Source: an uncultured Eubacteriales bacterium (GTDB taxonomy: Bacteria > Bacillota > Clostridia > Oscillospirales > CAJFTT01). From it: 48,116 bases of DNA. The stretch spans positions 1-48,116 of the forward strand of contig CASDVX010000025.1 of assembly GCA_949284545.1 (NCBI GenBank). Reading direction: 5' to 3'. The position numbers were made by a program, and so were the translations under genes. This document shows, one piece after another, positions 25,831 to 26,415 of this stretch. A model generated the notes under the pieces. The model did no database searches. It was not told where the DNA came from and saw nothing but the letters and a program-made list of their open reading frames with translations. How positions within the stretch are numbered: position 1 is the first letter of the stretch; each line of letters starts with the position of its first letter.

Positions 25831-26415
25831 TCATTTATATGTGCGTATTATTTCCTCCGCAACCGCACGGCGCGTTATGCAGCGGTCCATGGCCTGCTTC
25901 TCTATATATCTGTGCGCATCGGCTTCCGTCATCTTGAGCTCCTCTATGAGCGCCCACTTAGCTCTGTTGACAATCCTTATTTCCTCCATTTTATCCTCCA
26001 CCGTAGCTGCACGTTTCTCCATTCGCCGCAGCCGCTCCCTCATCCCGCACAGAAGCATCACCGATTCAAGGAGTATTTGGGACGATGTGGGTTTTGAAAT
26101 CGCAAGGACGCCGTAAGGTGTGACTTTCGAGCATATTTCTCCGTACTGCTCGGACCGCACGAGCATAAGGACGCAGACGCTGCTGCTCTGGCACAGGTCT
26201 GCGGCAAATCTCGCACCGAAGTCATCCGGGAGCGGAGTGTTTATTATCACTATGTCAAAGCTGCGTTCAAGCACGGTCCGTTTCGCCGCGCCCACGTCCT
26301 TCACCACGCAGACAGGGGAATATCTTCCCTCGGGGAGAAGCTGAGTAAGCGAGCGGCTCATTTTTTCCGACGCGGACACTATAAGCACGCTGTAAACGCG
26401 CAGCTTCAAATCCAT
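25831..26415 (-). CDS. ANTAR-domain regulator with a degenerate receiver
   Basis: RNA-binding antiterminator of the NasT/AmiR/EutV type, 194 residues. The N-terminal domain (1-120) has a receiver fold, but the phosphorylation site is Asn59 in IINTPLP where Asp is expected, and the acidic pocket is missing (VLIVSAS instead of a DD pair); the conserved Lys is kept (ISKP). A coiled coil (125-145) leads to the ANTAR domain with [19 protein letters not shown] and the [17 protein letters not shown] helices. AGGAGG precedes the ATG, 38 bases after glnA. Known family members bind paired hairpins in nitrogen-gene leaders; control of the GOGAT and glnN leaders here is inferred. No kinase gene is nearby. 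Confidence 0.92.

Follow-up and report, generated by a model that had tools for sequence, protein, structure and literature searches.

The window, the whole stretch of 48,116 nucleotides analysed here from an uncultured Eubacteriales bacterium, carries an operon in the order amidotransferase, gltB, ferredoxin, oxidoreductase, GXGXG subunit, glnA and nitR, with pyrG behind. A divergent transcript contains the gene for a type III glutamine synthetase (glnN, GSIII) and an ammonium transporter gene, and a trpB-like gene lies between the two units. The features relevant to the analysis are:

25831..26415, minus strand: nitR, encoding a NitR-type protein of 194 aa with a pseudo-receiver (S14-A15, N59, V86, K108) and an ANTAR domain
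26454..27665, minus strand: GlnA-like protein of 403 aa with a type I GS fold, Lys289, Ala55 and no C-terminal thong tail
27683..32769, minus strand: split ferredoxin-type GOGAT, made up of the following five genes
27683-28402, minus strand: GXGXG subunit of GOGAT
28403-29692, minus strand: oxidoreductase of GOGAT
29656-30084, minus strand: ferredoxin of GOGAT
30081-31586, minus strand: gltB of GOGAT
31588 to a start near 32682 or 32691, minus strand: amidotransferase of GOGAT (a longer ORF to 32769 crosses the leader)
32705..32760, minus strand: predicted intrinsic terminator of the GOGAT leader (3' arm 32726-32715, U run 32710-32705)
32751..32770, minus strand: putative GOGAT antiterminator hairpin AATGAGC[AAAGGC]GTTCATT at the inferred RNA 5' end
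32779..32807, minus strand: promoter-like TTGACA (32807-32802) and TATAAT (32784-32779) with 17 nt spacing, for GOGAT
34642..34670, plus strand: promoter-like TTGACA (34642-34647) and TAGAAT (34665-34670), for the glnN transcript
34682..34697, plus strand: first putative glnN antiterminator hairpin AAGGC[AAGGAC]GTCTT, overlapping a terminator-like hairpin that extends to about 34728
34758..34777, plus strand: second putative glnN antiterminator hairpin ACGAGGC[AATGGG]GTCTTGT, overlapping a terminator with a U run at 34797-34803
34824..36920, plus strand: glnN, GSIII (longest ORF from 34779, likely start 34824)
36962..38692, plus strand: amt, ammonium transporter with a C-terminal PII domain, 41 nt after glnN and with no hairpin of its own in the window

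The trpB-like gene (33212-34584) thus sits between two putative NitR-controlled transcripts, and a T-box leader upstream of it (32884-33146, plus strand) scored 84.3 bits, slightly under the Rfam cut-off of 93. A second GSIII gene is present in the same genome, outside the window (C16:1143-2237, minus strand).

The nitR product combines a receiver that is barely recognized by Pfam (Response_reg, residues 10-118, 30.5 bits with a cut-off of 30.2) with a full ANTAR domain (PF03861, residues 139-190, E-value 2.2e-15, 56.6 bits versus a cut-off of 27.3). Asn59 occupies the position of the phosphorylated Asp, Ser14-Ala15 the site of the acidic pair and V86 that of the conserved Thr/Ser, and the conserved Lys is kept as K108. 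The preliminary description of this DNA had pointed out the Asn59, the SA pocket, the retained Lys and the complete ANTAR domain, and translation, Pfam and alignment agreed with it. Alignment with homologues, which it had proposed as a check, revealed N59 in 82 of 83 rows from 80 related loci, S14 in 82/83 and K108 in 80/83; this close set leans towards N at residue 59, since N59 was part of one (FDIVIINT) of the six back-translated patterns by which the loci had been retrieved, and the residue-59 count was therefore repeated with independent searches. In the resulting wider set of 103 rows, assembled by profile search and tree, residue 59 was N in 81, D in 9 and another residue in 13, with Asp59 reappearing several times. 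Two acidic residues at 14/15 occurred in no glnA-linked row of the wider set; the glnA-linked Asp59 homologues (L164/L228, L167, L190, L209, L211, L214 and L220) have TV, SR, SN, HR, MN, EH or SV at these positions. Conservation across homologues rules out a sequencing error at N59. A relative at E ≤ 1e-10 was detected in 99 of 291 sampled genomes of the class. In this family the pseudo-receiver is long established and stably maintained. One homologue, on a contig labelled Planctomycetia (L017), clusters tightly with the Clostridia in the tree, and this contig is probably mis-binned.

The ANTAR core is almost invariant in the family alignment (N150, A152-K153, L156, H168 and I171-D177), and H168 and M176 align with the RNA-contacting Tyr164 and Met172 of EutV (PMC8934654). 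The AlphaFold model of NitR gave its best TM-score with RNA-bound EutV (0.79–0.80 for the EutV fold), and it also matched the fold of AmiR (AmiR/AmiC, 1qo0), with an atypical receiver. No second ANTAR protein was detected in the genome.

No histidine kinase gene is present in the nitR operon of the window, and the 12 HATPase_c matches in the genome all lie on other contigs. Likewise, no histidine kinase was found among the scanned neighbours of five glnA-linked Asp59 members (L190, L209, L211, L214 and L220). Only one Asp-bearing member, L225, adjoins a PdtaS-type kinase; it has no link to glnA, and a separate glnA-linked copy with Ser59 (L226) is encoded in the same genome (G035). An intact Asp together with an adjacent histidine kinase in the same operon, which would have spoken against control without receiver phosphorylation as put forward in the preliminary description, was thus looked for and not encountered among the members scanned. 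With N59, no acidic pair and no linked kinase, that claim gains support, and on sequence grounds NitR cannot be switched by phosphorylation of residue 59.

The gene directly upstream of nitR is glnA in 77 of 80 close loci, the remaining three being on contigs that begin at most about 110 nt before nitR, and in 54 of 60 wider loci. The linked GlnA adopts the GS fold (TM 0.95 to the enzymes of M. mazei, P. polymyxa and B. subtilis) and keeps the metal, ATP and glutamate residues, together with the ammonium-site Asp (D52). Glutamine synthesis requires a flap Glu (E327 in Salmonella, Glu304 in B. subtilis; PMC6529630, PMC9249791), and the linked GlnA has Lys289 instead; it has Ala55 at the position of Ser53, and the residue of the D50 loop that faces the flap is mostly Asp61 in linked GlnA versus Arg62 in B. 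subtilis. The flap Lys was found in 76/76 core loci. The C-terminal tail, which in GS forms a ring-joining helical thong (PMC9249791), is absent from 120/120 Lys-type GlnA proteins, which stop near residue 403, and present in 45/46 Glu-type proteins. All Lys-type GlnA belong to a single clade of the NitR tree (54 rows, support 98/93), and N59 occurs on both sides of this branch, so the dead receiver preceded the decay of GlnA. Another GS was present in all 25 Lys-type genomes checked (GSIII in 24, a second type I enzyme in one), and no other GS was found in three Glu-type genomes; as far as sequence goes, Lys-type GlnA looks dispensable as an enzyme. Three loci outside the Lys clade have nitR with no glnA in the operon (L182, L198 and L205). 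Two of their genomes, G137 (L182) and G298 (L198), contain GSIII and yielded no type I GS at E 1e-30; in these two genomes NitR has to be controlled by something else or not at all.

The hairpins in the window were found by a search for stems closing an AxxGxx hexaloop, and the same hairpins were recovered in relatives without any closing-pair condition. C[AxxGxx]G hairpins with at least 5 pairs were present in 45 of 46 glnN leaders (shuffle mean 0.76), in 35 of 43 GOGAT leaders (shuffle mean 0.44) and in 1 of 24 amt leaders used as a control; the shuffles and the control exclude a chance origin. The GOGAT-type hairpin also precedes glnA-nitR at loci with no upstream GOGAT (L005, L010, L024, L033, L039, L044 and L046). 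In the GOGAT leader of the window, the 5' arm of the terminator (GGCGTTCATTCA) is formed by the end of the loop and the 3' arm of the antiterminator hairpin, and the terminator fold has a predicted energy of -40 kcal/mol, as against -5.2 for the hairpin alone. A downstream arm that is followed by a T run and able to pair with the loop and 3' arm was identified at 129 of 143 sites, so hairpin and terminator are predicted to be mutually exclusive. Stem covariation amounted to 78 double-changed cells, mainly between the GOGAT and glnN classes, versus 3–15 in slid controls; the percentage of stem pairing is in part a product of construction, since sites were picked for at least 5 pairs and GC..GT closing. 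No Rfam family covered the leaders, the weak matches to unrelated sRNAs being far below threshold. In many glnN leaders (for example L009, L013, L029, L033 and the window, 34682-34803), tandem hairpin-terminator units lie about 65–130 nt apart with a promoter before the first unit only, which looks like two attenuators in series.

With +1 placed from the -10 element and promoter consensus, the outermost stem base lies mostly 0–5 nt from +1 at 89 promoter-linked sites, and at none of the 89 was a hexaloop found between the inferred +1 and the hairpin. A second AxxGxx hexaloop on a stem of at least 3 bp before the U run is absent from 68 of the 89 leaders; a possible one occurs in the other 21, versus 8.8 expected by shuffling. 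The single hairpin is also seen in more distant members (for example L180, L208, L209, L210, L211, L214 and L223). A search for dual-hexaloop targets in the window gave one pair only, at 11607 and away from nitrogen genes, and was discarded. A covariance model matched, in the window's own genome, the GOGAT and glnN leaders of the window only; across 39 genomes it matched in 13 of 25 with an ANTAR protein and in 0 of 14 with none (Fisher p = 0.0009). A promoter-plus-loop pattern occurred at 13 places in the own genome versus 3 for the reversed-pattern control, but the covariance model backed only the two leaders, and further targets were rejected; of the remaining places L088 was inspected, and its match was a Shine-Dalgarno sequence directly before a start codon. 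The GOGAT and glnN leaders are therefore likely RNA targets of NitR, well supported by computation. Since the operon holding nitR itself starts with such a hairpin, nitR is grouped with its own likely targets, in line with the earlier proposal that the gene is cotranscribed with them.

Part of this picture has precedents, and the novelty suggested in the preliminary description was overstated. NitR of Clostridium saccharobutylicum, published in 2007 (Stutz et al., cited in PMC6316151), is described as an ANTAR antiterminator that induces GS/GOGAT genes on nitrogen limitation. The window protein resembles it, by description in the citing text, as an ANTAR-family RNA-binding protein with GS/GOGAT targets, and its position directly downstream of glnA and its predicted GS/GOGAT leader targets identify it as a NitR-type regulator. 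That text does not bring up a non-phosphorylatable receiver, a site with one hexaloop or a changed GlnA. In C. thermocellum, the cluster Clo1313_2030-2036 has the same gene content as the window operon, encoding an amidotransferase, a ferredoxin-dependent glutamate synthase, a ferredoxin, a type I GS (2031) and a receiver-ANTAR protein (2030); its genes were reported to be expressed alike, and an antiterminator role was suggested (PMC4676874). The account of this cluster concerns the genes, and in that passage not the leader RNA, the receiver residue or the GlnA flap. Clo1313_2031, which adjoins the ANTAR gene Clo1313_2030, is described as the only type I GS gene in C. thermocellum (PMC9888227, PMC4676874), and deletion of the type I GS deregulates nitrogen metabolism there, according to the title of a study cited in PMC9888227.

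Comparison with better-known systems places the family between several of them. It shares with EutV/EutW of Enterococcus faecalis the ANTAR domain, the AxxGxx hexaloop and a hairpin that competes with an intrinsic terminator (PMC3369931, PMC8934654). However, EutV is activated by the kinase EutW and depends on two hexaloops joined by a 5–12 nt linker (PMC3369931, PMC8934654), whereas NitR has no linked kinase or phospho-Asp and its predicted target is one hexaloop at the inferred RNA 5' end. A 2022 study redefined the minimal ANTAR binding motif as one hexaloop and still required two for antitermination (PMC8934654), and in Desulfotomaculum the ANTAR sites predicted at genes for glutamate synthase are dual hairpins (PMC3369931). 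AmiR of Pseudomonas aeruginosa (1qo0) likewise has an atypical receiver fused to an ANTAR domain. It is controlled by a partner protein, AmiC, in contrast to the putative GS-like partner here, and a dual hairpin is listed for the amiE leader (PMC3369931). In Bacilli, GS senses nitrogen and binds the regulators TnrA and GlnR through its flap and active site (PMC9249791), but those are MerR-type DNA-binding proteins controlled by an active GS, whereas NitR is a predicted RNA-binding regulator and its neighbour has lost the flap Glu.

The reading that best explains these observations, to which we give a probability of roughly 55%, is kinase-free antitermination by NitR at single 5' hexaloops, most likely signalled by contact with GlnA. 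When nitrogen is scarce, NitR would bind the GOGAT-glnA-nitR and GSIII-amt RNAs at their 5' ends, in each case through a single AxxGxx hexaloop. The bound protein would keep the loop and 3' arm from the terminator, allowing RNA polymerase to read on, and the amounts of GOGAT, GlnA, NitR, GSIII and Amt would rise, with NitR thereby boosting its own operon. GlnA would sense glutamine or a related metabolite and hold or release NitR by direct contact, with no phosphorylation involved; a role as inhibitor of NitR is more likely than one as activator. What computation shows is the inactive receiver, the conservation of its RNA-contact residues, the overlapping hairpins and terminators with their location, conservation and gene linkage, and the degeneration of GlnA; antitermination, the nitrogen signal and the GlnA partnership are steps that we infer.

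Among the controllers named in the preliminary description (GS, the PII domain of Amt, or the level of NitR itself), gene linkage and co-degeneration favour GlnA as the best candidate. Its gene is the constant neighbour of nitR, and its active site is altered at the ammonium end with the ligand residues intact; it also seems expendable for catalysis, and in Bacilli GS regulates TnrA and GlnR by contact (PMC9249791). It cannot be the only possible partner, given that NitR is kept where the operon has no glnA (L182, L198 and L205) and that G137 and G298 have no detectable type I GS; the constant presence of glnA may also reflect co-regulation only. A more specific form of the GlnA-contact reading, which we hold tentatively and at less than even odds, is that the flap-less, tail-less GS paralogue has become a dedicated glutamine (or glutamate/ATP) sensor that clamps a pseudo-receiver ANTAR protein, with GSIII doing the chemistry. 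If true, GlnA and NitR, both degenerate, would together form a nitrogen-sensing RNA switch whose sites of action are single hexaloops at RNA 5' termini.

Several other explanations were weighed against this one. The Lys-flap protein could still be an enzyme, its other catalytic residues being kept, and act as an active GS or as one of other specificity, such as a gamma-glutamyl-amine ligase, with no regulatory role; GlnA4 and PauA7 also have no E327 and ligate other amines (PMC6529630). Unlike these two, however, it keeps the ammonium-site Asp (D52), and its position between GOGAT and nitR and the lost ring-joining tail point elsewhere, so we regard a purely enzymatic role as rather doubtful. 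Somewhat less probable is control of NitR by the PII domain fused to Amt, by GSIII or by a small molecule in the emptied receiver pocket (N59, S14, K108). Pseudo-receivers are able to bind ligands (PMC12632262), and N59 is so strongly conserved that the pocket is probably functional; moreover, Amt-PII and GSIII fall within the same predicted regulon, and some genomes have NitR and no type I GS. Against PII or GSIII as controller, direct adjacency to nitR is a constant feature of glnA, but not of amt or glnN.

NitR might also be RNA-competent at all times and set by its amount only, through hairpin feedback, promoter activity or the turnover of RNA or protein, with GlnA merely co-transcribed. 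The hairpin does precede the operon encoding NitR, and NitR persists with no linked glnA in a few genomes, but positive feedback by itself brings no nitrogen signal, and the strict adjacency of glnA and nitR and the coupled decay of GlnA would need another cause; we consider this unlikely, about to the same degree as control by PII, GSIII or a ligand. NitR could also be phosphorylated at a different residue, or by a kinase encoded elsewhere, and work like EutV. This reading could draw on the twelve HATPase_c genes outside the window in the genome, yet it would have to accommodate Asn59, the missing Mg2+-binding acidic pair and the lack of a linked kinase with the glnA-linked members scanned, and appears very improbable. 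The preliminary description had recognized the dead receiver correctly and left both the RNA targets and the changes in GlnA unnoticed.

Nitrogen sensing in Clostridia is little understood, and a 2025 review describes the switching of bacterial pseudo-receivers as a mystery (PMC12632262); the GlnA-NitR family is a concrete test case for both. The pair of a GlnA-like protein and NitR is constant, the candidate RNA targets are clear, and GlnA can be followed through evolution from a full GS with Glu flap to a Lys-flap form that has lost its tail. The family also suggests that ANTAR targets with one hexaloop occur in nature, as opposed to the two needed in the EutV work (PMC3369931, PMC8934654), and searches that demand two hairpins would miss such a regulon. 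In the open-access literature, a scope that makes absence weak evidence, no report was found of the family-wide pseudo-receiver, of a natural single 5'-terminal hexaloop or of a Lys-flap, tail-less GlnA. The same promoter-hairpin-terminator unit was further observed at L041:16975-17056, L044:2530-2611, L071:873-954 and L038:8431-8512 (all minus strand), and these four units may be extra members of the regulon.
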